A stretch of DNA of 64,000 nucleotides from a bacterium (lineage in GTDB: Bacteria; Electryoneota; RPQS01): positions 186,001 through 250,000 of the forward strand of contig DASXUQ010000019.1 in the NCBI GenBank assembly GCA_036504735.1, given 5' to 3'. A program made the position numbers and the translations under genes. The notes below the pieces were generated by a model, which was not told the origin of the DNA, did not search any database, and saw only the letters and a list, made by a program, of their open reading frames with translations. Shown here piece after piece: positions 10,627 to 39,704 of this stretch. Positions within the stretch are counted from its first letter, which is position 1; each line of letters starts with the position of its first letter.

Positions 10627-10661
10627 GTCTATGGCCAACCTTCTTCCCAGCATATTCGCCC

Positions 10662-12201: not shown

Positions 12202-12274
<73 letters not shown>

Positions 12275-12286
12275 CCTCCCCCCTGT

Positions 12287-12529: not shown

Positions 12530-12558
12530 TTGAACCTCCCACAGAAAGCTCGTATATT
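12530..12558 (+). promoter_or_regulatory. candidate sigma70-like promoter
   Basis: TTGAAC, 17-bp spacer, TATATT, 24 bp before the start of the secreted sorting-domain protein; same spacing and -10 as the candidate before the MFS gene. Confidence 0.4.
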
Positions 12559-12581
12559 TCGAGAAAACGAGGAGGATCATC

Positions 12582-14585: not shown

Positions 14586-14634
14586 ACCTGTGCTGACGTC
14601 TAAACCTTCCGGCCTGCATCCCCCAATCCTTGTC

Positions 14635-14662
14635 ATCCTGCATCCGTCTTCGGATGCAGGAT
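14635..14662. terminator. hairpin after the secreted protein gene
   Basis: Perfect 12-bp stem atcctgcatccg/cggatgcaggat with TCTT loop, 49 bp after the stop. It may terminate the plus-strand gene or be a copy of a small palindromic repeat, since the sequence has little T-tract. Confidence 0.5.
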
Positions 14663-14790
14663 CTCTCTTTCCGACAACGCCACCGTCTTCCGTGGGGAGC
14701 GGTTACACCGGCCAGTGAGCGGATGCACCGATCCGTGGGCGACTGCAATCCGCTCCTACTTCCGTTTCTATCCTTTCTTCGGCGGACCCC

Positions 14791-22181: not shown

Positions 22182-24101
22182 GTGCTGCTTCGCACGGTCC
22201 ACATTTTCAACAGCCGCTCCAACCCGACCTTTTGGGCGCCGGCAATCGATCCGGCGTGGTATGATCAGGCGGCCTTGAACATCCTTCAGGGAAACTGGGG
22301 GCCGTTTCCGCTGTTTCGCGCCCCGCTCTACCCCGCCCTGCTCGCCGCCACCTACGGCGTTTTCGGCCACGATCTGGTCGCCGCCCGGATGCTCAATGTC
22401 CTCTTTCAGGGCATTGCCGTCTGGATCATCTACCGGGTCGGGCGATCCTACTTTTCTGCCCCGGTAGGCGTGGTCGCCGCCGCCCTCTTTGCCGTCAACG
22501 GCATGGCGATCTATTTTGCCGCCGAGATGGTTTCCACCAGCGCGGAAGTCCTCGCCGCCGCCGTCATGATGTGGGCCACTCTGCGCCTGACCCGCGACAC
22601 CAGCCCGGTGACGCTGATTCTATGCGGCCTGGCTTGGGGCCTCAGTGTGATCGTCCGCCCCAATTTCCTGTTTATGTATCCCGTTCCGGCGCTGGTGATC
22701 TACCTGCTCTCGAAGCAGGGTCCCGCTGACCGCTGGTGGCCGCAAAAGGGTGACCTGATGCGCCGCCTTCTGCCCGTGGTTATTTGGGGCGTGGCCGCCG
22801 TGGTGCCGATCTTGCCTGTCACTGCCGCCAACTGGATAAAGGGCGGTGAACCGGTGTTGGTGGCCACACAGGGCGGCATCAACTTCTGGATCGGCAATAA
22901 TCCCGAGTCCACCGGTATACTGTCGTTCCTCCCCGGATACGGCAGCACTTGGACCATGGAGGATGCTCAGACCGAAGCGGAAGCCGATGTGGGCCATCCG
23001 CTGAAACAGGGCGAATTGTCAAACTACTACTTCGCCAAGGGATGGCACTACCTGCTCTCCGACCCGCTGGGCTCCATTCGGTTTATGATACGGAAAACCT
23101 TGCTGTTTTTCAACCATATTAAGATCTCCAACAACAAGCATATCGGATATTTTTCAGCTTTAAGCCCCTGGCTGCCTCCCCTGACCCAAATAGACTTCGC
23201 AGTTCTTATCCCCTTGAGCTTACTGGGGCTATGGGCTTTTTGGCGGCGAATGGATGTCAAAATTCTGGGAGCGATGACCGCGCTGTATACAGTCAGCGTG
23301 GTCCTGTTCTTCATCACCAGCCGCTTCCGGTTGCCCACTACGCCCTGGCTGAGTGTCCTCGCAGCGGCGGGTGCCGTGTGGACCGTTCAGACTATCTTAA
23401 GCCGCCCACGCCTGAAACAGCTTGTGCCCCTATCCATTCTGGTTCCCGGTACGGTGCTGGTATTGATGAACCCCTGGCACATGGAGGATGCCAACGTTGG
23501 TTGGGCGCGCTACATGGAAGGCAATGCCTACCTGAAACTGAACAACCTCGACTCCGCCCGTGTCTGCTTTCTTGACGCGCTGAAGGACTCCACCGCGGTG
23601 GCGCGCGCGGAGCTGAATCTTGGGGTCATTGCGGGCAAGAAGGGCAATCTCGCGGAGGCGCGTAGTTGGTATGAAGCCTCTCTCGACTTCGATTCCTCCA
23701 ACGCCGACGCGTGGAATAACATCGGGACCACCCGGGAATCGCTCGGCGATACCAGCGGAGCACTGGAAGCGTATCGTCATGCCCTCACACTCAGGCCTAC
23801 CGCGCCGGATCCGCGCCACAATCTCGCCGGAACCTACTTCCGTCTCGGAGTCAAGGCGCTCAAGCAGGGCGATGATGCCACGGCAATCCGGCAACTCACC
23901 TCCTGCGTGGAACTCGAACCGGCTTCGGTCGCCTATTATGATCTGGCCATTGCCTATGGCCGCAGCGGAGCCACGGAACAGGCGCTGTCCAGTCTGGATC
24001 GCGCGCTTTACCTTGATCCGCGCTATGTGCCCGCGATGCAGCTCAAGGAGATGATTGCGAAGGGGACTGCAACATATCCAAAAGCCGGCGGGACTCCTTA
24101 A
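22182..24101 (+). CDS. GT39-like polytopic membrane protein with C-terminal TPR repeats
   Basis: 639 residues counted from GTG at 22182. The N-terminal 420 residues hold about ten membrane helices with a glycosyltransferase-39/ArnT-type layout: an extracytoplasmic acidic motif soon after helix 1 (APAIDPAWYDQAALN), then helix pairs. Residues about 440-635 are TPR repeats (e.g. AELNLGVIAGKKGNLAEARSWYE, split 478-500; AWNNIGTTRESLGDTSGALE). GT39 enzymes transfer sugars from polyprenyl-phosphate donors. The start is uncertain: the frame is open back to 22062 and encodes a hydrophobic run WPYLLIGIAVLL just before the GTG, as expected for helix 1, but without ATG/GTG/TTG. The 3' end overlaps the convergent next gene by 59 bp. 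Confidence 0.85.
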   Translation: MLLRTVHIFNSRSNPTFWAPAIDPAWYDQAALNILQGNWGPFPLFRAPLYPALLAATYGVFGHDLVAARMLNVLFQGIAVWIIYRVGRSYFSAPVGVVAAALFAVNGMAIYFAAEMVSTSAEVLAAAVMMWATLRLTRDTSPVTLILCGLAWGLSVIVRPNFLFMYPVPALVIYLLSKQGPADRWWPQKGDLMRRLLPVVIWGVAAVVPILPVTAANWIKGGEPVLVATQGGINFWIGNNPESTGILSFLPGYGSTWTMEDAQTEAEADVGHPLKQGELSNYYFAKGWHYLLSDPLGSIRFMIRKTLLFFNHIKISNNKHIGYFSALSPWLPPLTQIDFAVLIPLSLLGLWAFWRRMDVKILGAMTALYTVSVVLFFITSRFRLPTTPWLSVLAAAGAVWTVQTILSRPRLKQLVPLSILVPGTVLVLMNPWHMEDANVGWARYMEGNAYLKLNNLDSARVCFLDALKDSTAVARAELNLGVIAGKKGNLAEARSWYEASLDFDSSNADAWNNIGTTRESLGDTSGALEAYRHALTLRPTAPDPRHNLAGTYFRLGVKALKQGDDATAIRQLTSCVELEPASVAYYDLAIAYGRSGATEQALSSLDRALYLDPRYVPAMQLKEMIAKGTATYPKAGGTP

Positions 24102-25920
24102 GGTCCGGCGCCAGTTGCAGCGCGATGGTCGCTTCATCCCGCGCCGCGGAAATATCTCCCCTTGCAGCCAGAATCAGCGCCAGATTGTTGTGGCATTGCG
24201 CGGATCCGGGAGCTATGGCCACGGCCTCACGCTCCATTTTTAGGGCCGCATCCAGTTGCCTCTCTTGTGTGAACCGCCCCGCTTCGGCTTCGTAGAGGCC
24301 CGCCCACAGCGAGTCACCACGGTTCATGACCAGCTCGTAGATGCGCCACGTGGTCTTGTAGAGCGTGCCGGGCCTGAGCAGGGTCATCCGGTACGGCCAG
24401 ACCGGTTTGGCGTCGGGAAAGGTCTGCACATACAGGGGATCGGTCGCCCCAAGATGCAGCCATACGGTATCGACATGGGCGCCGCGCAGTTCGATCAGCA
24501 GTTGCCGCAATTCGGTCGGATTGGCCGCGGTAAAGAATTCATGCTCCGGCCACAGCGGCGCCAGATCCGCGCACTGTGACATTGTCGGACAGATGATGGG
24601 CGTTCCCAGCTTCGGTCCTCCGAAGCGGATGCGGTCGGAGATCTCGGCATAGCGCGCCTGCACCAGCGCCGCGGAACTCAGCGTTTGCACGGCGGTGAGG
24701 GCCAGTAATACACCGAAGGCCCAGCCACGCGCGCGCCCGGACTGGTACAAATCAATCAGCAGCAACGGCACAGCCGCAAGTAAGATTCGCGGTCCCCAAT
24801 GGACACCTTCCCAGACCGGCGCGCTGAGAACAGTCAGCAGGATCGTCGCCAGAGCAAGATAGAGCGCCGGGCGGTTCCGGTACGGCGGCACGGCCAGCAA
24901 TGCAACCCAAGGCAGGCAGGCCAGCAAGGAATTGGCGTACATCAGCACCAGCGGCGGGAGCGTGGCCGACCAGAGCCGGTACTGATACAGCCCAACCCAC
25001 AGCAGCAACAGTCCCAGAGCAAGGCCGAGCATGGTCTTGCTCTTTTTCTTTTCTGCATACAGCAGCAGGCCCACACCGCAGGCAAAGCCGGCCAGCAGCA
25101 ATGCAGAGAGCCAGCCGGCGAGGTCCATTCGCACGAGCAACCCATAGAACGCCTCAGGACGCGCCGTAAGCCATCCGGCAAGGCCTTTTTGTCCGGGTCC
25201 TATCAGGTTCAGGCCGATCTGCGTCAGCGCCGGCTGTGTGGACGTCAGGGCATGCCACACCATCATCACTGCAATCCCGGCGGCAGCTCCAGCGGCGAGC
25301 ATCAGCGATTTGGCATAGGATCTCGTGATCAATAACCATGCTCCCAGCACCGCTCCCAGAAGTGCCGTTTCGGGACGCAGCAGAACGGACAGTGCGAACA
25401 GAAATCCGGCAGCCGCCGGCGGCAGCCCACCCGCGCCGGATTTCGGCCTTGCCGTCAGCCACACCGCCGGCCAAAGGAGCAACCAGCTCGCCACGTGTTC
25501 CCACGGCACCAGGCCGTAAAACGTGAGAGGCAGCAGCAGAAAGGCCCAAGCGAACCCGCGCCGCGCCAGCACCAGCCACAGCGCAATCGCGAACAATGCC
25601 GGTGCCAGTCTCGACAGAGTATTTCCGCCGAGCGCGATCAGTTTGAACAGGGCGCGTGTCCAGGGAGAAAATCCGAAGGCAAAGCCGCCCTCTACCCGCG
25701 TGGCGAACGGCGCATGCAGCGGTGGAAAGGCTGCAGGGTCGGACAGTTCACTGCGGACACTGCCATCCGGCAAAACATCTGCCCACGGCCCCGTAGCGCT
25801 CCGCGCGGCAATGTGTTTGATGCTGTCATCGATGGTCCATGCGCCATTACCCGGTAGAAGCAAGGCGGTGGCCACTAATGCCAGAGCCCAGAGGATTGCC
25901 AGCCTGCGCGACAGATTCAT
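24043..25920 (-). CDS. polytopic membrane protein with TPR tail, possible glycosyltransferase
   Basis: 625 residues from the ATG at 25920; a further upstream extension would run through a terminator hairpin and is rejected. An N-terminal signal/anchor (about 10-28), an extracytoplasmic acidic motif (TIDDSIKHIAARS), and about ten hydrophobic helices up to residue about 430 suggest a GT-C type fold. Then comes a soluble domain and a short TPR segment (about 555-620, AQCHNNLALILAARGDISAARDEA, split). Same overall plan as the convergent neighbour, with which it shares 59 bp tail to tail, so they may act on the same glycan or be distant paralogues. Substrate unknown. Confidence 0.8.
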   Translation of the reverse strand: MNLSRRLAILWALALVATALLLPGNGAWTIDDSIKHIAARSATGPWADVLPDGSVRSELSDPAAFPPLHAPFATRVEGGFAFGFSPWTRALFKLIALGGNTLSRLAPALFAIALWLVLARRGFAWAFLLLPLTFYGLVPWEHVASWLLLWPAVWLTARPKSGAGGLPPAAAGFLFALSVLLRPETALLGAVLGAWLLITRSYAKSLMLAAGAAAGIAVMMVWHALTSTQPALTQIGLNLIGPGQKGLAGWLTARPEAFYGLLVRMDLAGWLSALLLAGFACGVGLLLYAEKKKSKTMLGLALGLLLLWVGLYQYRLWSATLPPLVLMYANSLLACLPWVALLAVPPYRNRPALYLALATILLTVLSAPVWEGVHWGPRILLAAVPLLLIDLYQSGRARGWAFGVLLALTAVQTLSSAALVQARYAEISDRIRFGGPKLGTPIICPTMSQCADLAPLWPEHEFFTAANPTELRQLLIELRGAHVDTVWLHLGATDPLYVQTFPDAKPVWPYRMTLLRPGTLYKTTWRIYELVMNRGDSLWAGLYEAEAGRFTQERQLDAALKMEREAVAIAPGSAQCHNNLALILAARGDISAARDEATIALQLAPDLKESRRLLDMLQSPSQSSP

Positions 25921-25948
25921 ATGCATGTGTCCAGAGGAGTGCAAACAG

Positions 25949-25980
25949 CGAGGGCTGCGGAGAATTTTCCGCAGCCCTCG
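25949..25980 (-). terminator. terminator of the five-gene exported operon
   Basis: Perfect 13-bp stem cgagggctgcgga/tccgcagccctcg with short loop, 40 bp downstream of the last gene of the minus-strand operon (stop at 26021). Confidence 0.8.
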
Positions 25981-26020: not shown

Positions 26021-28234
26021 TCAGGGATTCGGACGGCCGCCGCCGAAGTTGGTACTAAAGACGCGCGGCTGGTTGAAGAACAGGGCTTCATAGGCGATGA
26101 CCGCGGCCACCTTCGTTCCACCCATTTCCGGCACGTAGTCGTTCTTGATAAAGGAAAGCGGGAAGGTGAACAGACCCGAACGGAACCGCGTCCACAGTTC
26201 GATATTGAATCGGCCCTGATCGCGGTTGTAGGTGATCACGCTCTGGTAGCGGATGTAGTTCGTCGCCACCGGCTGATCGTGGCTGGGTTGGATCGGAATG
26301 TAGGTGTAATCGACCTGCAGTGAATCCGAATCCTGCCAGGCACCTGCGGTTGCCGGCGTGGAGACCACAATGCGCCACTCGCCGGGAAGACCACTGGGCA
26401 GAATCTCGCGGTCCACGGCGATCACTTCGCCTGCTACGCCTCGTGTTGCATTGAACACACGGCTCACATTCAGAATCCGCGTGTGGCCTGCGGCGGGACG
26501 CAGATTGGCTCGCGACGGCGTGGAGGAGACTACCATGCAGTCCACATTGAACGCGCTATCTGACGCCAACGACGAGCAGGAATTATAGTTGTAGAGGGAC
26601 ACGGTATATTCCGTGCCGGAAGCGGCGCCGCTGCGGCCAAAGTAGTCCACCTCGGGCAGGCAGTAATAGCGCTGGCTATGGTAGATCATGCGGTGCACAA
26701 GGGCGGTATCCACTTCAAGGCCCGGCAGCAGCCGGTCGGTCGTCGTGGCGCCGCCGAAGTCCGCCGCTTGCGACATGTTGGTCGCCTGCTGACCCTTTGC
26801 GCACACCGTCGAAAGGTTGTGGTAATCGCGGAAATGGCGATCTGCCCAGTTGGAAGCCGTAGGTACAAGGTCGCCGCACTGAGTCAGACCGAAATCGCGG
26901 AAGACGCCGCGGCCTGAAAACAGAACCTGACCGCCAACCTTCATGTATTCCTGCAGCACCTTGACGCGAGATTGAATATCCGTCGGTGCGTTACGGGACA
27001 GATTGTCGGAAATGACCCAGACCCATTTGTAGTGACGGATATGGTCAATGGGCACCCGGTTATTGAGCGTGAAGTCCTTGTCAAGATACCAGTCGTACTG
27101 GTTCGGAATCGGAGTCGGATTCGCCAGCGGGTTTAGCGCACGCCACTGCTCGGCCAGCGCCAGACCTTCCGGGATCACGGCATTGTAAAAGTCCGTAATC
27201 TCCTGATCGTTGCGCATACCGAAATTGGTGGAGTCGATGCCGGCGGTGGGATGAGCAGTCCAATCCACCACCAAAAGCTGACGGTCGAAGTTGCGGCCCT
27301 CGACGGCGCTGACGGCGCGGAACGTCGCCCAGCATACCGAATCCGGTGTGGATTCGGTCAAGCCGTCGTCACGCACCTTGAGGTAGAATTTGTAGGACCC
27401 GTCCAGTTGGAAGTTCGGGTCAACGGCGAAGGCCGCCGCCGCCGCAAACGTCACCTGAGCCTCGGAACTCCATGGGCTCCATCCCTGGGCATAGCCGACG
27501 ACATGGTTGCTGTCGTCCCGAATGGCATAGGGGAAGATTTCGCCGGTCGTCTCATTCTGCAGCATGTAGCTGTAGGTGAGCGGGATCACATTCAGCGCAC
27601 GGCTGTCCGGATCACTTCCCTTCCACAGGAAACCGATGCCCGGATAGGTGGACGTCAGCGTGTCCCCCCAGAACAGGGTGTCGGGAATGTCATAGTGAAG
27701 CTGATAGTCCTGCGGTCTGTCCGGCGAAGTGCGGGTAACATCCAGCGCCCACTTGACCGACGGGGCGTAGGGCGGATTGTTGGTGCGGAAGAATGTGCGC
27801 ACCTTGACGGAGGAGAACGCGCCCTTGTCGTCCACGCAGCGGAGCATGAACACGTGCTCCGTGATGGTCGTGTCGGCGGCGCGGCGCAGATAAACGGTGT
27901 CCGCGTTGCTGTACGTTGTCACCCAGGCTGAGGCCGGCAGCGAGTTGATGTACTGCTGCAGGGCCGCATCGCCCGCCCGGTACGCATTCACCGCGGCGGT
28001 ATCGCCCGCGTCATGGTACTGGAAAGCGTTCACCAGACCGTCAGCATCGTACCCGTACCAGCGCACGACGGGAGCATAGCTGAAGGTCGTGCTGTCCAGC
28101 GGGATATTGACGAAATGAACCTCGGGCGCGCGATTTTCCGAAAGGCCGTCACCCAACCGGTTACATCCCCAGAAACTCGTCCCCAGGAAAATAGCCAGGA
28201 TGACAGCCAGCAAAACTTTCGTTCGATGAAGCAT
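26021..28234 (-). CDS. large lipoprotein, function unknown (operon gene 5)
   Basis: 737 residues; signal peptide with lipobox-like FWGC, so lipidated at C24 is likely. Good ribosome-binding site GGAGA. The N-terminal half has repeated Ig/fibronectin-like beta segments with the pattern NRAPEVHFVNIPLDST ... VRWYGYDADG and NNPPYAPSVKW, also KGSDPDSRA. The central part has a Rossmann-like stretch (about 345-470, RQLLVVDWT ... KWVWVISDNLSRNAPTDI) where the frame describes loss of access, as in GldG/DUF4350-type domains, but no family can be named with certainty. Last gene of the operon, 70 bp after the PorV-like gene. Confidence 0.75.
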   Translation of the reverse strand: MLHRTKVLLAVILAIFLGTSFWGCNRLGDGLSENRAPEVHFVNIPLDSTTFSYAPVVRWYGYDADGLVNAFQYHDAGDTAAVNAYRAGDAALQQYINSLPASAWVTTYSNADTVYLRRAADTTITEHVFMLRCVDDKGAFSSVKVRTFFRTNNPPYAPSVKWALDVTRTSPDRPQDYQLHYDIPDTLFWGDTLTSTYPGIGFLWKGSDPDSRALNVIPLTYSYMLQNETTGEIFPYAIRDDSNHVVGYAQGWSPWSSEAQVTFAAAAAFAVDPNFQLDGSYKFYLKVRDDGLTESTPDSVCWATFRAVSAVEGRNFDRQLLVVDWTAHPTAGIDSTNFGMRNDQEITDFYNAVIPEGLALAEQWRALNPLANPTPIPNQYDWYLDKDFTLNNRVPIDHIRHYKWVWVISDNLSRNAPTDIQSRVKVLQEYMKVGGQVLFSGRGVFRDFGLTQCGDLVPTASNWADRHFRDYHNLSTVCAKGQQATNMSQAADFGGATTTDRLLPGLEVDTALVHRMIYHSQRYYCLPEVDYFGRSGAASGTEYTVSLYNYNSCSSLASDSAFNVDCMVVSSTPSRANLRPAAGHTRILNVSRVFNATRGVAGEVIAVDREILPSGLPGEWRIVVSTPATAGAWQDSDSLQVDYTYIPIQPSHDQPVATNYIRYQSVITYNRDQGRFNIELWTRFRSGLFTFPLSFIKNDYVPEMGGTKVAAVIAYEALFFNQPRVFSTNFGGGRPNP

Positions 28235-28304
28235 AGTGGTCTCCGGTAGCGAACCGCACGCCAGCGCCGCGGCTCAGCAGATCTGCGGGATCCCTTCAGG
28301 AATG

Positions 28305-29390
28305 TTAAAAGATCGGCTTCTTAAACTTGTATCCGAGGGAGAAGCGGTGGATGTTGTCGAGGAACGTGATGCCGGTAAACGCGTAGTCTACACTCAAACC
28401 GATCTTGTCGAACCTGAAGCCGGCCCCAACGGTCGCGCCGTTCTGGAAGAACTTGCCGTCCGGCGAGAACAACGGGTATTCGGCAAACGGATCATAGTTC
28501 TTAGCGTCCTGACCGGCAAGAATCCGCTTCTCGTATTCGTCCCAACTGTACCGTTTGATGGCGTTGATCTTCTTGCCAAAGCGCAGGAAGGCCATGTTCT
28601 GGTAACCGTATTCCAGACCGATATTGTACACTTCAAGGTTATCGTTCGGGTGCGACCAGGATAAACCGAGCAGCAGCGCATGCGTGCCGACCGAGTCCGT
28701 GCCCGTCGTCCACTGGTAATCCTTGGTGTTCAGCAGGTATCCGGCCAAGCCGAACGTGAAGTTCATCGGCATGGGATAGGGCGTGTTCACCATCTTCATG
28801 TCCGGGCCGAAATTCGACGTCAGCATGGCGATGCGCACGCTGCGCCAGCCCGTGGCATAATAGGTGCCCACGTCGGCCGACCAGCCGTTGGCCGACTTAT
28901 CGGCCAGCGTCTCGTTGATATACTTGATCGTGCCACCCACAGAGAACTTGTCGGTGAGCTTCTGACTGTACGTCAAACCGCCGGCGATGTCTCCTGCGGA
29001 GAATGTGCGTCCGGTGCCTTGCGGCATCAGAGTCGTGGTCTCGTCCATGTCGCCCGTCGTCAGATAGGTGACCGACACGGCCCACGCGCCATTCCATTTG
29101 TTCATGGGATGCGAAATCCCGAGGTATCCGTAGCTGAGTCCCGCGGCATAGTCCACATAGCTGACCATCGCCTCGGGGTCGGCCAGGCGGGCCAAGGCCC
29201 CGGGGTTGTGATAGATGGCGCTGGCATCATTGGCGACTGCCACATATGCCTCGCCCATTCCGACCGCGCGGCAACTCGGGCTGATTTTGAGGAACTGCAC
29301 TCCGGCGGTTCCCACTTTGGCCTGAGCCCACACGGCTTGAGGAATCAGTGGAAGTACGGCCAGCAGGACAAAAAGCGGCCATCGCTTCAT
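28305..29390 (-). CDS. PorV/PorQ-family outer-membrane protein (operon gene 4)
   Basis: 361 residues, signal peptide 1-22 and AAGGA ribosome-binding site. The segment AGVQFLKISPSCRAVGMGEA ... ASAIYHNPGALARL is the hallmark of PorV/PorQ (UPF0164-like, FadL-related) proteins; the rest is a beta-barrel ending in FSLGYKFKKPIF with the terminal Phe typical of outer-membrane proteins. In Bacteroidetes PorV is the outer-membrane shuttle for type 9-secreted cargo. Here it is embedded in an operon of exported proteins, 36 bp after the large exported protein, which suggests it serves those partners. No other T9SS core gene is in the window. Confidence 0.9.
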   Translation of the reverse strand: MKRWPLFVLLAVLPLIPQAVWAQAKVGTAGVQFLKISPSCRAVGMGEAYVAVANDASAIYHNPGALARLADPEAMVSYVDYAAGLSYGYLGISHPMNKWNGAWAVSVTYLTTGDMDETTTLMPQGTGRTFSAGDIAGGLTYSQKLTDKFSVGGTIKYINETLADKSANGWSADVGTYYATGWRSVRIAMLTSNFGPDMKMVNTPYPMPMNFTFGLAGYLLNTKDYQWTTGTDSVGTHALLLGLSWSHPNDNLEVYNIGLEYGYQNMAFLRFGKKINAIKRYSWDEYEKRILAGQDAKNYDPFAEYPLFSPDGKFFQNGATVGAGFRFDKIGLSVDYAFTGITFLDNIHRFSLGYKFKKPIF

Positions 29391-29426
29391 GGGAGGGTCC
29401 TTCCGTCTATATAAAGCATCTGAAGC

Positions 29427-32384
29427 TTAGCGAATGATGACAAACTTTCCGGTCTCAATCTTGTGTCCATTCCCCGGCGTTAAGTCTTCCACGGAGAACA
29501 GGTAAATGCCGGACACCACCTGTTGCCTGTTGCGGGAGTTGAGGTCCCACCGCTCGGAATTCAGACTCGGCCACGCGGACTTGTCGCCCGTCGTGTTGTG
29601 GGGAATGATCTGCACAAGGTCGCCGGCCACGGTGAAAATCCGGATCAGGCACTGGTCGGGCAGGTTCATGAACTCAAGGCGGCGGTCAGCCTGCGGATAG
29701 AATCCGGTTGTGCCGTCGTTCATATTCTCCCAGCTCCCTCCACCAGGGCCGCCGTAAGTCTGCGTGTAATCCTGGTAGGCACGGTACGGATTCGGCACCA
29801 CGCGCACCGGATCGTGGGCACTGCCGGCGGGCGCCAGCAGCACCGCGTTGGCGGTGGGACGGGTCTCCAGCGGACCAAGCCCCGAATGCGGATCGCCAAA
29901 GTCCTTAGCCACCACGGAATAGTAACGCGGCCAGAGACGGTTCGCCTTGATATGATATTCGTACGTCGAATCGTTGCCCGCCATGCGGATCGATTCGAAG
30001 CCCGTATTGTTGCTCACCGCATGCAGCGTGCCACGCTTGCCCAGAATCGTGCTGTCACCTCGGCCCGCGGCCATCAAAGAATCGTACATCGCTTTGTTGA
30101 CCGGGATCGTCATCATCGAATCGGTATCGATCGAGAAATAGGCGAAGTCCACCAGATCGAACTCGTCCAGCAAATTGTACTGGTCGTCCTGGTTTACATT
30201 GGCCCAGAGGATCTTGTAGCCTTCGAAGTCCTGCACCCGCGAGAAAGGATCACGGTAGTCGACATTTTCCGAGGACTTCTTCGCCCAGCGCAGAATCACT
30301 TCGTCGCCCCGCAGCTCGTAGCCGAGGCCGCCGATGTAGTCCTGGTCCGTACGCACCACACCGCCCGCATGACTCGCGGAGTTGTGGGTGCCGGGCAACG
30401 CGTAGAGCAACGCCGGAATCGGCGGAGGCGGCGGACCGGTAAAGTCCGGAACACCGTCGCCCTGATCGAGGAAACCATTCCCCGCCATCCAGCCCATATC
30501 CCAATCGCCCAGTTTCGGGACACCATGGTAGATCAGATTGTCAGGGATAATCTGGTCTTCGGAAGACCATGAATTATTGGCGTTGGAGACCGAGTCAATC
30601 CTGCCGTTGCGCTCCGAACCGTCACAGTCAGGCCCGGTGTAATAGCCGGCGAATTTCGCGTTAGCGCCGGCGTGCAGCGCCGGATCCCCTTCGGTGAAGT
30701 ACCAGACGGGGATACTGTCATAAGGCTGGCTCGGATCGTTGCAGTTCCTTGGGCGGAAGCCGGCGGGCATTTCGGTATAGATACCGTCGGTGCCGACGTC
30801 CTCGCCGTACCAGCCATCGCCCACATCCGGTTTGCCGTCGCCATCAAGATCCCACATCGGCGTATCATGCATCCGGTTGTCGTAGACTTCCAACGCCCAA
30901 CGCGCGTTCTGGCGCAGATCCGAGAAGTTGAACAGGCTCGAATCGATATTCTGGTTGGACGGCTGCGGATGGCTCGGATCGTGGAAGTTCTCGCCGCCCA
31001 CGTAGGCGATCGTCATATTGAACTTCTCGCCCGGGTTCAGGCGGTAGATCCGACGGCCGGATTCGTCGGTATAGTCGTAGACGCCCAGCGGACCCCAGGA
31101 CAGCAGGTAACGAGTATCGTACCCATTGGCAATGTCCGCGGCGTTCGGTGACGGGTCGTCCGTGCACCAGCCCTTGTTAATCGGATTGCTGACGGTGCCG
31201 ATATTCTGCGGCGCAACCTGGGACATCTTGTCCACCATGATCTGCCAGAAATCGAATTCGCCGTTGCTCAGGATCTGATACTTGTGCTCGTCGCCCATCG
31301 GTGTTCCGAACAGGCGTGTCCATCCCATGCCCATACTGTCGCGGCGGCAGTAATCTTCCCAGGACGGGCCGTAGTCCAGCGTCACGTCGCCGTTCGAGAT
31401 CCACCAGTTGAAGGAGGTCTTGAGGCGCGGGTTCGGACCGCGGATGACGCGGGTGCCGGTCACATTCGGGACAATCAGCGGACCGGACGTCATGGTTGGA
31501 TCGCGCCCGTCGTTGTCCGCGATCCATGCCACGTTGATCGGAATCGTCACCGTATCGGCGCCGTTCACTTCCTGATAATTTTCCAGGAAGCCGCAAATAT
31601 CGTCCGTGTGCTGATTGAGCATGTCCTTCCGGCCCACATCGGCGTCCACATACAGACCGACGTAGAGATTCTTCAGGAAGTTCGAGGCGATATTTTCGAT
31701 CTCAAAATCCACGAGGATGAAGTCTTCGGCAAACGCCTGGCTGAACGCATAGGACTTCTGCGAAATCTTGATGCCCAGCGGACGATGCACACCGTCCACG
31801 GGATCGTTGTCCACGAAGCCGGGATCCTTCAGCGTGTCGGCGTAACTGCAGATGAAATCCTGATCCGAAACCGCATTGGCTTCATCGGTCACATACTCGC
31901 CGAGGCAGTTGGTGCGGCCGGGACGCGTCGAACGCTCAATGATGCCATTCGCGGCGCCGGGGCCAGGCCAGAATTCGTTGATCGACGGGGAAAACCAACC
32001 GTCGGTACCGGTACTGACGCGCTTGGTTTCGAATCCCTGTTCAACGATCAGCGCGCCGACCCACAGACCGGCCTGGAACAGATATTCCTGGCCGCTCCCT
32101 GCGGGAAATTCGCACTGGTCGGCCCACTGGTTGGGCGGACAGGGATTCTTGAGGGCGGTGCTCTGACCGGGGCCGTCATTTCCCAGGTAGCCGTGGTTGG
32201 TGATGTTCATCTTCATCTTGCCCACGTCATGAACCCGGTTCTGGGCGTTGGGCCGAGCGAACATTGGGCGCACCGGTCCACGGACCCGCGATGCGTCAAA
32301 TGGTCCGTTCGCAGCCAGAGCACTCAGCGCCAGGCCGCAGACAAATGCCACCGATAAAACCACTCGAACAGATAATCTGTGCAT
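29427..32384 (-). CDS. large exported protein with C-terminal sorting-like domain (operon gene 3)
   Basis: 985 residues from the ATG at 32384 with GGAGG upstream; signal peptide cleaved near ALA24. The body is mostly beta-structured with Asp/Asn-rich segments resembling Ca loops (LDGDGKPDVGDGWYG) and many Trp/Tyr. The C-terminal about 110 residues (VRVVPNPYRAY ... LIRIFTVAGDLVQII ... GIYLFSVED ... GKFVIIR) is a FlgD/sorting-like domain that begins with VPNPY instead of YPNPFNP. Proteins of this kind occur widely in FCB candidate phyla without assigned function. It sits between a beta-helix lipoprotein and a PorV-like protein and is the likely cargo of the latter. Confidence 0.82.
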   Translation of the reverse strand: MHRLSVRVVLSVAFVCGLALSALAANGPFDASRVRGPVRPMFARPNAQNRVHDVGKMKMNITNHGYLGNDGPGQSTALKNPCPPNQWADQCEFPAGSGQEYLFQAGLWVGALIVEQGFETKRVSTGTDGWFSPSINEFWPGPGAANGIIERSTRPGRTNCLGEYVTDEANAVSDQDFICSYADTLKDPGFVDNDPVDGVHRPLGIKISQKSYAFSQAFAEDFILVDFEIENIASNFLKNLYVGLYVDADVGRKDMLNQHTDDICGFLENYQEVNGADTVTIPINVAWIADNDGRDPTMTSGPLIVPNVTGTRVIRGPNPRLKTSFNWWISNGDVTLDYGPSWEDYCRRDSMGMGWTRLFGTPMGDEHKYQILSNGEFDFWQIMVDKMSQVAPQNIGTVSNPINKGWCTDDPSPNAADIANGYDTRYLLSWGPLGVYDYTDESGRRIYRLNPGEKFNMTIAYVGGENFHDPSHPQPSNQNIDSSLFNFSDLRQNARWALEVYDNRMHDTPMWDLDGDGKPDVGDGWYGEDVGTDGIYTEMPAGFRPRNCNDPSQPYDSIPVWYFTEGDPALHAGANAKFAGYYTGPDCDGSERNGRIDSVSNANNSWSSEDQIIPDNLIYHGVPKLGDWDMGWMAGNGFLDQGDGVPDFTGPPPPPIPALLYALPGTHNSASHAGGVVRTDQDYIGGLGYELRGDEVILRWAKKSSENVDYRDPFSRVQDFEGYKILWANVNQDDQYNLLDEFDLVDFAYFSIDTDSMMTIPVNKAMYDSLMAAGRGDSTILGKRGTLHAVSNNTGFESIRMAGNDSTYEYHIKANRLWPRYYSVVAKDFGDPHSGLGPLETRPTANAVLLAPAGSAHDPVRVVPNPYRAYQDYTQTYGGPGGGSWENMNDGTTGFYPQADRRLEFMNLPDQCLIRIFTVAGDLVQIIPHNTTGDKSAWPSLNSERWDLNSRNRQQVVSGIYLFSVEDLTPGNGHKIETGKFVIIR

Positions 32385-32446
32385 AGATGTCAAACCTCCA
32401 GCGGGTAGGCGGCCGGTGCCGCGCCCGGTGTGTTCCAGCTTGAAAA

Positions 32447-34495
32447 TCACTTTGAAGCGAGCCCGCCGGATGATTGCCGGATGGCTCCTGCGCCGACACT
32501 GCCGCCGTTCGGGCCGCCGAAGGCGCCCATATCCGTCGGCGAGCCGTCGGGATTCATGCCCGCGTTACGGCAGGGTGAGGAGGCGGACAGGTGGAAGTCC
32601 GTCTCGCCGGCAAACTGCGGATCCGCGTTGAGATCCGTCAGATGGGCGATTCGGTCTGCCGGCATGTAATTCCAGTCCGTGGAGTTCTGCCCGCTGATGT
32701 ACACATGCCCGAAAACGTCGTTGTAGTCGAGAACCGGCGTGGACGATTCCACGACATACAGTCCGTACCGGTCGTTATGGTAGACGATCGTGTTGCGGAG
32801 ATGCGGATCGCAGTTGTTGGTCATGTCCATGCCGTGATAGCCGTTGTGGGCAAACACGTTATTGGTGAGGACCGGACTGCTGAACGCCTCCAGCGCCAGA
32901 CCGACCGTCACGTTGGAATGCACGATACAGTTCGTGATTTCCGCCGCCGTTCCCGCATTGCGCAGCCAGATGCCACGGCCGCGGCTGGCGCGGATCACCG
33001 TGTTGCGGATCGTCGTCGCAGAACTGTCCGCCTTGATGCCGTACAGACCGCACGCGTTGAACGTGCAATCCGCGACACGCACGGTGTCGGTAAAGTCGGG
33101 GGTCTGTGTGGCGATCTGCATGCCGTAGTCGAATCCGTGGTCGAACAGACAGTTCTCGAACACAACACCCGGCTTGTAGACGTCAACAACTTTATAATCC
33201 ACCATATCCAGACCCCGCACCGTCGAAGGCGTAAACAGGGAGTCCGTATTGAAGAAGCGAATACCGCCCCACAGATCGCCGCCCGTCGCGCCCACCGAAA
33301 TGCGCGCGCGGGACGTGGAGTTGCCGTCCACGATCAGCTTGCCATGGACTTCGATAGTGTACAGACCCGTGGTTTCGATGTGCGTCCCGGCGGGTATCGT
33401 CAGGATCGTGCCCGGATTGATGCGGACGTTGCAGGACATGCGGTAGGTAATGCCCGCATTCAGGGTGCCGGAGACCACGCCGCGCAGCTCGCCGCCCGAC
33501 TGGACGTAGGGCAGCGTGCCCATGTCGGCGCGGGTATTGTCTACCTGGTCGAGGTCTTCACCCGCCGGGCCGGCATCAATGGCCGGTGAGCAGGATTGCA
33601 GCGCCAAATCGCTGCCGTCACGCAGCCACGTGCGGGGGGGATCCGCCTCTGTGCCCGTGTCGCCCATGTAGGTCAGCTTCGGATCCAGATCGATGTTGAA
33701 GAACCGGTCGCAACTGTCCAGATTCTGGTTGGTCTGGAATTTTACGCCGTACCGCGAGGAGTCGTATCCCATCAGGAACGAGATCGCGTGGTTGCCGCCG
33801 ACGCAGTTGTAAGACACATCGGGGCGTCCGGTTTCGCCGACTCCTTCGGGGAGTTGCACCGATGTGTCGGCGCGAACCGCCGAAGCGTCGTTGAACGTCA
33901 GCACATTGTAGCGGATTCGCGGAGCGCTGCCCGCGCCCGTCATATAGACAGCATTGTTCTGATTGGCCACCACCACGCAGCGTTCGATAACCGGGCTCGA
34001 GTTGTTGATCGCCAGCATGCCGCGGTAGGTCTGCGCCTCGACGTTGGTGGTGTCCGTGTCATAGAACGCGCCCCAACTGAATACGCAGTGCTCAAATCTC
34101 GAAGGATCGGTGGGATTGTGCAGTTTGAAGCCGCGCCACTGCCCCATGGCCGGACTGGTGCGGGCCGACGTAAAGATAATCGGCTGGGAGGCCGTACCGA
34201 CGGCGGTAATCTTTCCCGCCACGTCCACCCACCACAGACTGTCGAACATGATCTCCGTACCGGCTTGGATCTCCACGGTCCGGCCTTCGGGGATCACCCA
34301 GTTCTCCGACACAATGTACGGCCTGTCGGCGCGCGCGATGTAGGTCGCGTTTACGTCGAGGGGGATGCCGTCACGAAACTCGGGCGGCGGAGTCACGGGA
34401 TTCGAGTCGGGCTTGGAACAGCCGATCAATCCCGCGATGATGAGCAGGCTCAAAAGGGAGCCGCGAAGGAGTTTAGATTTCACCATGGCTTTCAT
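32447..34495 (-). CDS. right-handed parallel beta-helix lipoprotein (operon gene 2)
   Basis: 682 residues from the ATG at 34495 (ATG at 34486 is an alternative). Lipobox LIGC gives a lipidated C26. Two stretches of parallel beta-helix repeats follow (about 60-290 and 340-640) with rungs such as TVEIQAGTEIMFDS, PVIERCVVVANQNNAVYMTG, TTIRNTVIRASRGRGIWLRN and PHLRNTIVYHNDRYGLYVVE (pectate-lyase/NosD-like PbH1). Such folds bind or cleave polysaccharides or act as adhesins; catalytic residues were not identified. The C-terminus ends with Gly/Ser-rich sequence rather than a sorting domain. 54 bp after the TonB-dependent receptor gene. Confidence 0.88.
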   Translation of the reverse strand: MKAMVKSKLLRGSLLSLLIIAGLIGCSKPDSNPVTPPPEFRDGIPLDVNATYIARADRPYIVSENWVIPEGRTVEIQAGTEIMFDSLWWVDVAGKITAVGTASQPIIFTSARTSPAMGQWRGFKLHNPTDPSRFEHCVFSWGAFYDTDTTNVEAQTYRGMLAINNSSPVIERCVVVANQNNAVYMTGAGSAPRIRYNVLTFNDASAVRADTSVQLPEGVGETGRPDVSYNCVGGNHAISFLMGYDSSRYGVKFQTNQNLDSCDRFFNIDLDPKLTYMGDTGTEADPPRTWLRDGSDLALQSCSPAIDAGPAGEDLDQVDNTRADMGTLPYVQSGGELRGVVSGTLNAGITYRMSCNVRINPGTILTIPAGTHIETTGLYTIEVHGKLIVDGNSTSRARISVGATGGDLWGGIRFFNTDSLFTPSTVRGLDMVDYKVVDVYKPGVVFENCLFDHGFDYGMQIATQTPDFTDTVRVADCTFNACGLYGIKADSSATTIRNTVIRASRGRGIWLRNAGTAAEITNCIVHSNVTVGLALEAFSSPVLTNNVFAHNGYHGMDMTNNCDPHLRNTIVYHNDRYGLYVVESSTPVLDYNDVFGHVYISGQNSTDWNYMPADRIAHLTDLNADPQFAGETDFHLSASSPCRNAGMNPDGSPTDMGAFGGPNGGSVGAGAIRQSSGGLASK

Positions 34496-34549
34496 GGGCA
34501 AGATTCGAAAACGGGACGCGCCGAAACGCGATGAACGTAAACGTGCCGC

Positions 34550-37500
34550 TTACACCGACAGCTTCACGTGCAGCAGAATCTGCCGCGGTGCGCTGTAGTT
34601 GCGCGGATTCATGTCCGAGTCCGATCGGCCGGGCACCCACGTCGGATCCAGCCGATTGATGGATTCACCGGTGGTACCGGTGGCCGGATAGATGGCCCGG
34701 ACGTTCCCGCGGTTCAGCAGGTTGTAGATTTCGAAGCCTGTGGCGAGCTTGAGCTTCTTGCTCAGGTTCCAGAATTTGTCGAACTTCAAGTCGGTCGAAA
34801 CCGTCGCCGGCATGCGCGCCGAATTGGTCAGGATCTGATTGGCCGGAACCCCCGTCGTGTAGGTGGACGGCGTGTAGGGGTAGCCCGAGCCGTACGTGAA
34901 TTCCAGCGTCGCCAGCCAGTTGTTGGGGATCTTCATTCCCAACGGCTTCGGATGATCCTTGTCGCTGATCATCAGCGTCAGGTAGGCCGACACCGTATGG
35001 GTCTGGTCCCAGTTCAGCGGGTGCTCGTCATAGTTTTCCGGCACGTTCGTGTTGCGGTTCAGCAAGCCGTCCGCCGCCGCCGACTCCTTGCCGTAGGCAT
35101 AGGAGAAGTCATAGTTGGTGGTCAGGGCCCACATGCTCGAGAACTTCTTCTCCAAAGAGAATTCGAAGCCGCGGGCACGAGCGTATCCCAGATTGAAATA
35201 GCGGTTGAAAACCAGCGGGCCGTCGCGGAACTGGACGGTACCGATCTGGTTGAACACGTCACGGTAGTAACCCGCCACGTCAATCACCCAATCTTCCGCG
35301 AACTCCGAGTTCACGCCGACTTCGTAGGACACCGTCTTCTCATATTCGAGATTCGGGTTGCCGACGAGGGTGTTGGGAGACAGGTTGGCCGTCGCGCTCG
35401 TATAGAAGTACTGGAACTGCGGAGTCTGATAGTAATGCCCGTAGTTGAAATACAACTTGGACTTGGCGGAAATCGGATGGCTGATACCGAGACGCGGGGC
35501 AATCGTGAACCGGCCGCGCTGCGCCAGCAGGGCACCCGGCTGATTCTTATCGAGCTGCTTCTGCGTTTCGTCGATCAGGTCGTTCGGCTGGATGACGAAG
35601 TCGCTGCGCAGACCCGCGCGCACGATCATACCCTCGAACTCCATCTTGTCCTGCACATACAGTGCGCCTTCCCACGGACGATGCTTGTAAAAGTCGCGGA
35701 TTGCGCCGCGGTCCGGATAGGGCGAACCGGCCGGCAGCGGAACGTCCGTATTGGTATACGGCTGGTCCGGACCGGAAATCGAATTCATCGTCAGCGTACG
35801 GTATTTGAGTTCGAAACCGGTCTTCATTTCGTGGAACTTGTTGACCTGGCTCGTCAGATCGAATTTAGCCGACCACTCGCTGGACTGGCGCTTCTCCCAC
35901 AATGCCGTGGCGTCATACTGGCCGGGGTTGAGGAAGAAGTCCGGCAGGGGGTCCTGCGTGCCGTTGCCGTTATAATCGGTATAGCTCTCGCGCGGCAGGT
36001 GGCCGGTCTGGCCGGGATACAACTGCTTGCCGTTGTCCCATACATTGTTGGGCGGATCGAAGATCCAGTGGGCGCGCTGGCTGAAATCACTGCCACCGTC
36101 ATCCAGCGTCACGTTGGTCCACGTGGACTTGCCTTCGATGTAGTGGTAATATCCGGGGATGCCGTTGGTCATCGGCAGGTTCAACCAGTCCTGGCCCGTG
36201 TAACGTCCGCCGGCGTCGCGCATGCCGTTGCCCACGTCGCCGTAGGTGTACAGTACGGGATACCGCGGATCCGTGCCGAATTCCATCCGGGCCGGATAGG
36301 TAAACAACTCGTATTCGTCGAAGGCGCTGTTGGGGCCGTCATAGATGCCGTCCGTCGTCGGCGTGCCCGATCGCTGGAAGGCGCTGACGTAGGAGCTGGG
36401 CAGATCGTACCAATACTCGCCCGAATCCCACACGCCATTGTAGTTGCCGTTCGAGTCGGGAAGATCGATAAACGGCTCGCCCGTGTCAAACCACTGGTCG
36501 CCATCGACGAACGGCTCGCCCAACGCTTCCTTGCTGGCGTCGAACAGGTCGCGCGTGTTGATCTTGCCGTCACTATTCTTGTCGTCGAAACCTTCGCCGA
36601 AACCGTCGTACTTGCCGTTCTTGTTGGCATCCTGGAAACGTTCGCCGTCCCATTTGCCGTTGTGGTTCCAGTCCTGCTCGGCAAGCTGCGGTTCCGCCGG
36701 ATCCCAGCGACCGTTCTTGTTCAGATCCACGTAAGGATCCCACGGGTCCTTGACTCCGAGGTTGTTGCGTCCGGTGACCGGATCGGCAACATCGACCCAC
36801 GGTTCGGCTTCATCATAGACGCCGTTGCCGTTCAGGTCTACCCAGTCTTCGCCGCGGTCCCAGCGGCCGTTGGCATTGACGTCATCGTAACCTTCACCCT
36901 GACCGTCATACTTGCCGTTGCGGTTGGCATCCACATAACCGTCGGGGAAACCGTTCTTGTCCTGGTCCACGCCACCCGTCACCCGGCGGCTGTCGTCCTC
37001 GGCATCCTTGGAGAGCGTAAACTCGTCCGGGTTCTTGCCGCGCGACCGAATCGTGGTATTGGTGGTGAAGTTGCCGACGCTGATTTCGTAGAGCGTCGTT
37101 TTCGAGACATTGTGGGAGAAAGACAGGCTGACGGACTGGCGGGTAGTTTCGTAGAAGGGACGGTTGGCGACATTATACTTGTACTGCCAGCCGTAATTGC
37201 CGTCGACCGCCGCTTCGCCGTCCGGATAGATGTCGTAAAGCTGATAGTCGCGCTGGAAGCTGAGGTTCAGCTTGCGCTTCTGATCCATGCGATAGGTGAA
37301 CTTCCAGAACGTCGAGTAGTCGTTGTCCTGACGTTCGGGAAGTTTGATGCCGACGCCGAGAATGTCCGCGGGGCTGCGGCTGATGCTATAGGGCGTATAG
37401 GTGTTGCCCATGCGCGCCGTGCCCGAGGTGAAGAAGCTGAGCTTCTGCTTGCCCAGGAACCTGTCCGCAAAGGGAACCGGACCGGACAGCGAGTAATCGT

Positions 37501-38320
37501 ACTGATCCTGATCGAAGCTGGCATTCCACAGCTTGTTGGACTGGCCGTAGAAGGGCTTGTACGGATCGGCGGTCTTGAACAGCCGGTCCGTGCGGTACTC
37601 GAGCACGCCCGAGTAGTCGGTCATCGAGCCTTCCGGCGTCGTGACATTAATCAGGGCGGCCTGGAAACCGCCGTAGCGGGCGTCGCCGCCCGTCAGCACT
37701 TCGATTTCCTCGACGTTCAGCGCGGACATATTGACGAGCTGCTTGGAACCGGTGACCAGCGGGTCACGGAAGTCCATGCCGTCTACCTTCACCAGCATGT
37801 CGGCGCCACGGCCACCGCGCACATGCATTTCGCCCGCCGGGTCCACCTTAAAGCCCGGCTGCTTCTTCAGCATGCCGGCAATGCTCGGGACGGCGCGGGT
37901 CTGCATGTCCTTGGCCGTAATACGCACTTCCTTCGACGAGACGTCAATCTTGACGGCAGGCGGCGTATACGTAATAATCTGTTCCGTCGTCTGAATGGCC
38001 TCTTCAGTGAGGGTCGCATTCAAGGTCGTCGTCAAATCGCCGCTGACACCGACATCCCGGAAGGACTGGGGAGCATAGCCGACACTGCTGATACGAACGG
38101 TGTAGGACCCCGGCTGCACGCCAAGGATCACATACTGGCCGTCCACACCCACCGCAGCGCCCTGCTTGGTCTCCGTCACCTGCACGGACGCACCGATCAC
38201 CGGCTCACCGCTGGAATCCACGACCTTGCCGGCGATTTTGCCCGGTCCCGCCAACGCAGGACTCACGGCTAACATCAGGACGCCGGCAAGTAAAAAACCA
38301 AAGAATAAAACGCGTTTCAT
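34550..38320 (-). CDS. TonB-dependent receptor with carboxypeptidase-regulatory-like and Ca-loop insert (operon gene 1)
   Basis: 1256 residues from the ATG at 38320. Signal peptide 1-24; carboxypeptidase-regulatory-like domain 25-115 (GKIAGKVVDSSGEPVIGASV); TonB plug about 140-260 (ITAKDMQTRAVPSIAGMLKK, VRGGRGADMLVKVDGMDFRD); then a beta-barrel ending with HVKLSV. This is the SusC-like/OMR family architecture. Residues about 450-642 hold nine Asp/Asn-rich loops of the DxNxNGxxD kind in what should be an extracellular loop. SusD is not adjacent; the next gene is a beta-helix lipoprotein that could play a similar surface-capture role. First gene of a five-gene operon; AGGA site precedes the ATG. 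Confidence 0.92.
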   Translation of the reverse strand: MKRVLFFGFLLAGVLMLAVSPALAGPGKIAGKVVDSSGEPVIGASVQVTETKQGAAVGVDGQYVILGVQPGSYTVRISSVGYAPQSFRDVGVSGDLTTTLNATLTEEAIQTTEQIITYTPPAVKIDVSSKEVRITAKDMQTRAVPSIAGMLKKQPGFKVDPAGEMHVRGGRGADMLVKVDGMDFRDPLVTGSKQLVNMSALNVEEIEVLTGGDARYGGFQAALINVTTPEGSMTDYSGVLEYRTDRLFKTADPYKPFYGQSNKLWNASFDQDQYDYSLSGPVPFADRFLGKQKLSFFTSGTARMGNTYTPYSISRSPADILGVGIKLPERQDNDYSTFWKFTYRMDQKRKLNLSFQRDYQLYDIYPDGEAAVDGNYGWQYKYNVANRPFYETTRQSVSLSFSHNVSKTTLYEISVGNFTTNTTIRSRGKNPDEFTLSKDAEDDSRRVTGGVDQDKNGFPDGYVDANRNGKYDGQGEGYDDVNANGRWDRGEDWVDLNGNGVYDEAEPWVDVADPVTGRNNLGVKDPWDPYVDLNKNGRWDPAEPQLAEQDWNHNGKWDGERFQDANKNGKYDGFGEGFDDKNSDGKINTRDLFDASKEALGEPFVDGDQWFDTGEPFIDLPDSNGNYNGVWDSGEYWYDLPSSYVSAFQRSGTPTTDGIYDGPNSAFDEYELFTYPARMEFGTDPRYPVLYTYGDVGNGMRDAGGRYTGQDWLNLPMTNGIPGYYHYIEGKSTWTNVTLDDGGSDFSQRAHWIFDPPNNVWDNGKQLYPGQTGHLPRESYTDYNGNGTQDPLPDFFLNPGQYDATALWEKRQSSEWSAKFDLTSQVNKFHEMKTGFELKYRTLTMNSISGPDQPYTNTDVPLPAGSPYPDRGAIRDFYKHRPWEGALYVQDKMEFEGMIVRAGLRSDFVIQPNDLIDETQKQLDKNQPGALLAQRGRFTIAPRLGISHPISAKSKLYFNYGHYYQTPQFQYFYTSATANLSPNTLVGNPNLEYEKTVSYEVGVNSEFAEDWVIDVAGYYRDVFNQIGTVQFRDGPLVFNRYFNLGYARARGFEFSLEKKFSSMWALTTNYDFSYAYGKESAAADGLLNRNTNVPENYDEHPLNWDQTHTVSAYLTLMISDKDHPKPLGMKIPNNWLATLEFTYGSGYPYTPSTYTTGVPANQILTNSARMPATVSTDLKFDKFWNLSKKLKLATGFEIYNLLNRGNVRAIYPATGTTGESINRLDPTWVPGRSDSDMNPRNYSAPRQILLHVKLSV
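36395..36972 (-). repeat. nine Ca-loop-like repeats within the TonB-dependent receptor
   Basis: In-frame repeats encoding DQDKNGFPDG, DANRNGKYDG, DVNANGRWDR, DLNGNGVYDE, DLNKNGRWDP, DWNHNGKWDG, DANKNGKYDG, DKNSDGKINT and DSNGNYNGVWDS, separated by acidic linkers. The pattern resembles EF-hand/thrombospondin-type-3 calcium loops. The DNA repeats are diverged at synonymous sites, so they are not a recent expansion. Confidence 0.8.
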
Positions 38321-38456: not shown

Positions 38457-39704
38457 CTATATATGGCGGATAATTTCGTCCGCAAATTCGGACGTCTTCA
38501 GTTTCGTCGCGCCGTCCATCTGGCGGTGGAGGTCGTAGGTGACGCGCTTGGCGTCAATCGCTCCGGCGATCCCGCGATGGATGGCCTTGGCCACGTCGCC
38601 CCAGCCCAGATAATCGAACATCATCGCGCCGGAGAGAATCACCGAGCCCGGATTGATGACATCCTGGTCCGCATACTTGGGGGCCGTGCCGTGCGTGGCC
38701 TCAAAAACCGCGTAAAAATCGGAAATATTGGCGCCGGGAGCCATACCCAGACCGCCCACCTGCGCGGCGCAGGCATCCGACAGGTAGTCGCCATTCAGAT
38801 TCGGCGTGCACAGCACCTGATATTCATCCGGGCGCAGCAGAACCTGCTGGAAAATGGAGTCGGCAATGCGGTCCTTGAGCAGGATCTTGCCCGCCGGGAG
38901 CTTGCCATTGTGCTTCGCCCACAGATCGTCTTCGGTGACGACCTGATCGGCGAATTCGGCGGCCGCGCACTCGTAACCCCACTCGCGGAACGCGCCTTCC
39001 GTAAACTTCATGATATTGCCCTTGTGCACCAGCGTCACGCTCGCCAGCTTGTGGTCAATCGCCCAGCGGAGCGCCTTGCGCACGATGCGGTACGTCCCGG
39101 TCTTCGAAATCGGCTTGATGCCGATGCCGCTGTCCAGGCGCACGGTCTTTCCCAGCTCTTTGATGACGTCGATGAGCTTCAGAGCTTCAGGAGAGCCGGC
39201 GGGCCATTCGATGCCGGCATAGACATCTTCCGTGTTCTCACGGAAGATGATTACATTCAACTTCTCCGGATGCTTGACCGGGGAAGGCACGCCCTGAAAC
39301 CAGTTCACCGGACGCACACAGGCGTACAGGTCCAGAACCTGACGCAGCGTAACATTCAAAGAGCGGATGCCGCCGCCGATCGGAGTCGTCAGCGGACCTT
39401 TGATGGCAACGATGTACTTCTTGATCGCGGTCAGCGTATCTTCGGGCAGCCAGACGCCGTCGCCGTAGGTCTCCACGGCTTTCTCGCCTGCATAAACCTC
39501 GAACCATTCTACACGGCGCTTGCCGCCGAACGTCTTTGCAACGGCGGCGTCAAAGACCTTGCGGCTGGCTTTCCAAATGTCGCGACCGGTGCCGTCACCT
39601 TCAATAAATGGAATAATCGGATCATCGGGGACGTTAAGACGGTTACCCTCGATAGTAATCGGGTGCCCTTGAGTAGGAGGCACGAGCTTTTGGTAATCAG
39701 TCAT
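38457..39704 (-). CDS. icd: isocitrate dehydrogenase (NADP+)
   Basis: 415 residues, full length. Oxidatively decarboxylates isocitrate to 2-oxoglutarate in the TCA cycle. Substrate loop [13 protein letters not shown] (the Ser phosphorylated in E. coli), [23 protein letters not shown], and the coenzyme segment [11 protein letters not shown] match prokaryotic NADP-IDH; the Lys-Tyr pair after HGTAP indicates NADP+ rather than NAD+. No aceK-like kinase is in the window. No clear ribosome-binding site before the ATG; a structured leader precedes it. Confidence 0.97.

Follow-up and report, generated by a model that had tools for sequence, protein, structure and literature searches.

A window of 64,000 nucleotides (positions 186,001 to 250,000 of contig DASXUQ010000019.1, assembly GCA_036504735.1), which is part of a bacterial genome of 4.16 Mb (G000, contig C19), contains the operon under study: five minus-strand open reading frames (ORFs) running from position 38320 down to position 26021. 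The host phylum is here called KSB1, a working label to be taken with caution, as one of the two named relatives bearing the exported protein of the operon is filed as candidate division KSB1 and the other as 'bacterium'. From upstream to downstream, the following genes can be differentiated: (i) TBDR, a TonB-dependent receptor of 1256 amino acids (34550..38320) with a signal peptide and, according to Pfam, a CarboxypepD_reg domain, a Plug and a beta-barrel; (ii) BHLX, a beta-helix lipoprotein of 682 amino acids (32447..34495; PF13229, 1e-27); (iii) EXP, a large exported protein of 985 amino acids (29427..32384) with a signal peptide and, at 29427..29804 on the minus strand, a C-terminal domain whose profile matches predict a type IX export and docking signal; (iv) PORV, an outer-membrane barrel of the PorV/PorQ family with 361 amino acids (28305..29390); and (v) LIPO, the lipoprotein of the operon end, with 737 amino acids (26021..28234), which combines Ig/Fn3-like domains in tandem with an alpha/beta domain and, at the C-terminus, a beta domain.

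The genes are separated by gaps of 54, 62, 36 and 70 bases, and a plausible signal peptide or lipobox can be recognised by eye in all five products (TBDR, VSPALA/GP; EXP, ALSALA/AN; PORV, QAVWA/QAKVG; BHLX, LIG/CS, i.e., a lipobox LIGC; LIPO, FWG/CN). Coordinates and inspection thus agree with an original prediction, made from the letters of the DNA, that had described such an arrangement. No promoter-like site was found within the four gaps, by a scan that yields barely more hits than it does in shuffled sequences (9 vs 5.9). As for the strong terminator that had been placed at 25949..25980 (minus strand), this segment is a perfect inverted repeat, but its T tail is weak in the source genome and the hairpin was not called by a consensus terminator scan. 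Nevertheless, eight related genomes have a strong hairpin at the same spot, mostly of different sequence and in several cases followed by a T-rich tail. Because hairpins of different sequence hold the same place in eight relatives, the site is very likely a real terminator.

The loci of relatives were compared by tblastn. Up to the limits of the contigs, the order isocitrate dehydrogenase-TBDR-BHLX-EXP-PORV-LIPO-TPR protein is found in all genomes of the same family or the same order that have an EXP orthologue (L041-L051, L078). Other families of the phylum mostly retain this order, though more loosely, and two genes are usually added between PORV and LIPO (L053, L056, L060, L070, L073, L074), namely, those for a beta-helix protein of 1300-1800 residues with a type IX tail and for a TPR lipoprotein of roughly 200 residues. 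The five-gene order is far above chance and, as judged from these comparisons, the five genes are a conserved operon. Outside the module, the isocitrate dehydrogenase gene (38457..39704, minus strand) adjoins TBDR in most KSB1 loci, being its upstream neighbour across much of the phylum; a terminator was sought between the two, where hairpins are inconsistent across relatives. Downstream, past the terminator, lies a conserved gene for a TPR membrane protein (24043..25926, minus strand). The source genome also has a second set, TBDR-EXP-lipoprotein (an ORF of 367 residues)-PORV-LIPO, at 5039-14681 of locus L063 (G000:C17:15000-34999), which is flanked by type IX tail proteins. Full-length EXP paralogues with no receptor, barrel or lipoprotein as neighbours occur at L064, L065, L067, L068 and elsewhere.

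Beyond the phylum, the five-gene order gives way to a smaller unit. A profile search through a sample of 386 genomes detected the EXP family in 112 of them, and 42 EXP loci outside the phylum were read. TBDR, EXP and PORV lie together on one strand in 27 of these loci, while in three others the contig ends after TBDR-EXP. In about 16 of these 27 triad loci, a relative of LIPO lies nearby on the same strand; BHLX is present in none of the 42, nor in any of the multi-copy triads read. The original prediction of a five-gene order holds, then, within the same family or order, wherever there is an EXP orthologue and contigs permit, and more loosely in the rest of the phylum, but elsewhere, across many little-studied phyla, the triad recurs without BHLX; by gene content, the core of the system is the triad TBDR-EXP-PORV, often joined by LIPO, and not the five genes. 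The order of genes in triad loci differs from phylum to phylum, so that their linkage seems to have been maintained and not merely inherited with one ancestral stretch. At several loci of some phyla, the genes for ExbB, ExbD and TonB sit between TBDR and EXP, as recognised from size and sequence and, for two loci, by Pfam. Some genomes have many copies: receptor and EXP are found together at 16 places in G381, 7 in G015 and 7 in G095, and the fully read triads of multi-copy genomes are contiguous, with gaps mostly of 10-30 bases.

Regarding the receptor, TBDR matches the Pfam families PF13620 (2.9e-17), PF13715 (4.2e-15), PF07715 (6.2e-8) and PF14905 (2.9e-18), and its profile finds TonB receptors of solved structure (8the, E 2.2e-23). 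With a Plug and an outer-membrane beta-barrel present, it is by its domains a TonB-dependent receptor. It had been called SusC-like, but by the curated SusC/RagA model TIGR04056 it is not SusC, reaching 62.9 bits vs a cut-off of 368. With the KSB1 receptor profile, the triad receptors of other phyla give 190-312 bits and the remaining receptors of the source genome 110 at most; on these scores, TBDR belongs to a receptor family of its own, distinct from the other receptors of the genome. An insert at about residues 452-585 (36566..36967, minus strand) holds eight of the ten D-x-[DNS]-x-[DNS]-G motifs of the protein, for which shuffled sequences give a mean of 0.42, and is probably calcium-binding. 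Full-length KSB1 orthologues contain 8-14 such motifs; many receptors of other phyla, triad receptors included, have 0 or 1, and the cluster is kept in some phyla.

The partner of this receptor had been proposed to be BHLX, taking the place of SusD in a five-protein machine. In this phylum the BHLX gene does directly follow the receptor gene, the usual place of SusD. But since BHLX leaves no trace in the 42 non-phylum loci or in the multi-copy triads, where EXP is the constant partner, a SusD-like role for it is highly improbable and, on its distribution, BHLX is a phylum-specific extra. LIPO has an invariant lipobox cysteine and no Pfam domain; its structure model (pLDDT 84) gives Foldseek matches only to Fn3/Ig-type domains, and a PDB sequence search returned nothing significant. 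LIPO, in many sets, and BHLX, in the phylum, would be accessory surface binders.

EXP has no Pfam domain, and its whole-length profile finds no match in the PDB. Its structure model (pLDDT 74) gave Foldseek matches at E 1e-5 to 1e-4 to GH94, GH116 and aldose epimerase beta-sandwiches, which were rejected because query TM-scores of 0.14-0.19 are too low for any activity to be assigned. The C-terminus is more informative. In the PDB, the profile of the C-terminal family has a sole significant match, the PorU sortase (6za2, E 0.0014), while the profile of the KSB1 EXP C-terminus retrieves the PorU of the source genome (8e-5), PorU-type neighbours of PorV elsewhere, and few common tails. At the same end, proteins related to EXP hit the PorZ model NF052228 (E 1.5e-5 to 6.6e-4); the window EXP taken alone matches it weakly (E 0.11). 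EXP is thus predicted from profile similarity to carry a type IX Ig-like C-terminal domain of the PorU/PorZ type.

PORV scores 200 bits with NF033709 (cut-off 90), which makes it a member of the PorV/PorQ family, and its sole significant match in a PDB search is the PorV of the SprA-PorV structure (6h3i_F, 1.1e-9). Two equivalog assignments were rejected: (i) PorV, as PORV reaches 79.9 bits vs 250 with NF033710 and the PorU-adjacent barrel is another gene (208.7 bits); and (ii) PorQ, as it reaches 113.9 bits vs 220 with NF033711 and another gene of the source genome scores 200. It is below the PorV2 equivalog cut-off too, and the triad barrels tested from elsewhere are likewise under the cut-offs. 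When 83 barrels were placed in a tree, a branch with a support of 98/97 united all 49 cassette barrels, and the other barrels of the source genome, including the PorU-adjacent PorV, are outside this clade. On tree and model scores together, we reject PORV as the genome's general PorV or PorQ. As a separate observation, PorU, PorV and an M6-like protein are clustered at L124 (G000:C5:214000-228000), so that type IX sortase and attachment genes occur outside Bacteroidota.

The pairing of EXP and PORV follows a rule. A search of 13 genomes for the C-terminal domain of EXP gave 60 strong hits, and a PorV-family gene is directly downstream in 39 of them, with a chance expectation of 0.037; in 10 more it lies within 12 kb. 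Likewise, the eight genomes searched for the receptor family hold 48 full-length members, 42 of which have a gene with an EXP-type domain within 8 kb on the same strand, vs 0 of 31 other receptors by the same criterion. The claim that a dedicated PorV-like protein serves the exported protein is borne out by this adjacency and by the separate barrel clade, and PORV is predicted from them to be a dedicated shuttle and anchor for EXP. Its anchoring role rests on the precedent of the family: EXP would dock on PORV in the way that PorU sits on PorV, and PorZ on PorQ (PMC5562754). Behind one triad (L178, G381:C1:986500-1000000) lie three genes in tandem, each for a product of about 1120 residues with an EXP-type C-terminal domain, an arrangement that suggests several cargoes for one barrel.

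The exporter itself is encoded outside the operon. The source genome has SprA (TIGR04189, 744 bits), and so do 103 of the 112 sampled genomes with EXP; outside the phylum, SprA is present in 69 of 74 genomes with EXP vs 22 of 273 without it (p about 1e-46, uncorrected for kinship). One could then regard EXP as ordinary type IX cargo, cleaved by PorU and attached to the surface, the receptor being merely co-regulated and PORV a spare shuttle. Such a view would suit a genome in which PorU and SprA are both present, and PorV is the general shuttle in Bacteroidota for type A domains, all of which it handles (Paillat et al., 2025; PMC12618676). It is distinctly unlikely, however, in that the domain of EXP resembles the retained domain of PorU and not the common tails, a separate PorU-adjacent PorV exists, and EXP is paired with a distinct barrel clade far above chance.

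The surroundings of the triads concern the possible ligand. The SusD families PF07980 and PF14322 are absent from 12 triad genomes (the source genome and 11 others), while the control, Bacteroides ihuae, was positive. Downstream of triads in G381 there are: (i) a protein in which three starch-binding CBM20/X25 modules go with a weak match to SusE/F; (ii) enzymes assigned to GH130, GH3, GH5, GH92, GH127, GHL10 and a melibiase-like family, and an aldose epimerase; and (iii) transporters, that is, parts of sugar ABC transporters and sodium:solute symporters (SSF). Of 90 ORFs of at least 250 residues flanking the triads of G381, at least 14 code for a domain of a glycoside hydrolase, a carbohydrate-binding module or an epimerase, vs 0 of 30 proteins from evenly spaced control regions (p 0.014, a value that is indicative and not blind, the flanking proteins having been picked by eye). 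The copy of the window is differently placed, with no enzymes beside it, and one copy is retained throughout the phylum next to a core metabolic gene. Together with the partial likeness of PORV to PorQ and of EXP to PorZ, this would accord with a housekeeping complex for surface assembly, akin to PorQ-PorZ and acting on surface glycan or lipopolysaccharide, whose receptor serves maintenance and not nutrition. Nevertheless, up to 16 copies in one genome, with varied enzyme neighbours, and a separate PorQ-like protein in the source genome make such a complex quite improbable.

The reading preferred here, with a probability of about 0.6, is that the operon is a SusD-free TonB-dependent surface uptake module, in which type IX secretion delivers EXP to the surface, where a dedicated barrel of the PorV type holds it. 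EXP would cross the inner membrane via Sec and would then be exported by the SprA translocon; PORV would collect it through the PorU/PorZ-like C-terminal domain, and EXP would stay docked on PORV at the cell surface, much as PorV keeps PorU and PorQ keeps PorZ. Together, EXP and PORV would cooperate with TBDR in the manner of SusD with SusC: EXP and LIPO, plus BHLX in the phylum, would capture the ligand and present it to TBDR, which TonB would open. Within this scheme, we infer the retention of EXP on PORV, the contact between pair and receptor, the inward direction of transport and the glycan-like nature of the ligand. Of the surface uptake or assembly machine that the original prediction had envisaged as self-contained, uptake is kept as the likeliest function, but the machine is neither a five-protein nor a self-contained one, given that export would need SprA from elsewhere and that no TonB, ExbB or ExbD gene lies within the operon of the window.

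Several points weigh against the uptake module: (i) 12 of the 42 non-phylum EXP loci have no triad; (ii) 11 of the 60 genes with an EXP-type domain have no PorV-family gene nearby; (iii) the N-terminal fold of EXP is uncertain, its Foldseek matches to GH94 and aldose epimerase having low TM-scores; (iv) no glycoside hydrolase stands beside the window copy, and the enzyme enrichment elsewhere is subject to the choice by eye already mentioned; and (v) the carboxypeptidase-regulatory N-terminus is also found in Oar, a receptor that serves secretion (PMC6434023). The last point leads to the strongest rival, which is that TBDR serves secretion or assembly in the way of Oar from Myxococcus xanthus, using TonB energy outward in order to release EXP or place it on the surface, while PORV holds the product. 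The domain plan of PF13620 plus Plug is the same (PMC6434023), and receptor and exported-protein genes are nearly always adjacent. But given its type IX domain and its co-occurrence with SprA, EXP would already have an exporter; the presence of sugar transporters and glycoside hydrolases beside triads fits uptake; and some EXP copies have no receptor. An Oar-like role is, on balance, unlikely.

Type IX secretion is known chiefly for the release or attachment of enzymes and adhesins. If the uptake reading is true, it has a further role in building that half of TonB-dependent importers which binds the ligand, and barrels of the PorV family are fixed platforms in addition to shuttles. Moreover, the gene-order signature (receptor, EXP, PorV-family barrel) would locate glycan uptake loci in KSB1 and in phyla where SusC/SusD searches fail, and a family of large surface proteins now devoid of any domain match would receive a name. 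On a broader scale, the chances are about even that many phyla with SprA and without SusD use a TonB receptor together with a type IX-exported partner parked on its own PorV-family barrel, that this arrangement has expanded into SusD-free polysaccharide utilisation loci, and that the pairing of cargo with cognate shuttle extends to PorV-type barrels and PorU-like domains. The triad may be an undescribed alternative to the SusCD nutrient uptake of gut bacteria. The novelty already claimed for the system agrees with the open literature searched on the triad, on PorV in KSB1-like phyla and on SusD-free loci, in which no description was found (subscription papers and preprints lay outside this search).

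In any case, the triad can be compared with four known systems. The SusC/SusD pairs of the polysaccharide utilisation loci of Bacteroidota likewise set a CarboxypepD_reg TonB receptor beside a dedicated surface partner, occur in multiple copies and, as do triads of another phylum than that of the window, have glycoside hydrolases and a CBM20 protein of the SusE/F kind in their loci. They differ in that the 12 triad genomes have no SusD, in that the receptor of the window is far under the SusC cut-off, and in that the partner of the triad is EXP, with its type IX domain, plus a PorV-family barrel, whereas SusD is a surface lipoprotein. With the PorU:PorV and PorZ:PorQ pairs of P. gingivalis (PMC5562754), the triad would share a surface protein whose C-terminal domain fastens it to a FadL-like PorV/PorQ-family barrel, as predicted for EXP; but EXP has no sortase or propeller domains, PORV is below the equivalog cut-offs, and both are tied genetically to a TonB receptor. 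Closest in pairing logic to the triad are the type B C-terminal domain cargoes of F. johnsoniae and their PorP/SprF barrels (PMC9143113, PMC12618676), where each cargo has one barrel, encoded directly downstream, and is anchored to it, as predicted for EXP; in contrast, EXP and PORV use a PorU-like domain and the PorV/PorQ family. Finally, Oar of Myxococcus xanthus (PMC6434023) is also a CarboxypepD_reg plus Plug receptor linked to an exported protein, but that protein, PopC, has no reported type IX domain or PorV partner, while in the triad system SprA would supply the exporter.

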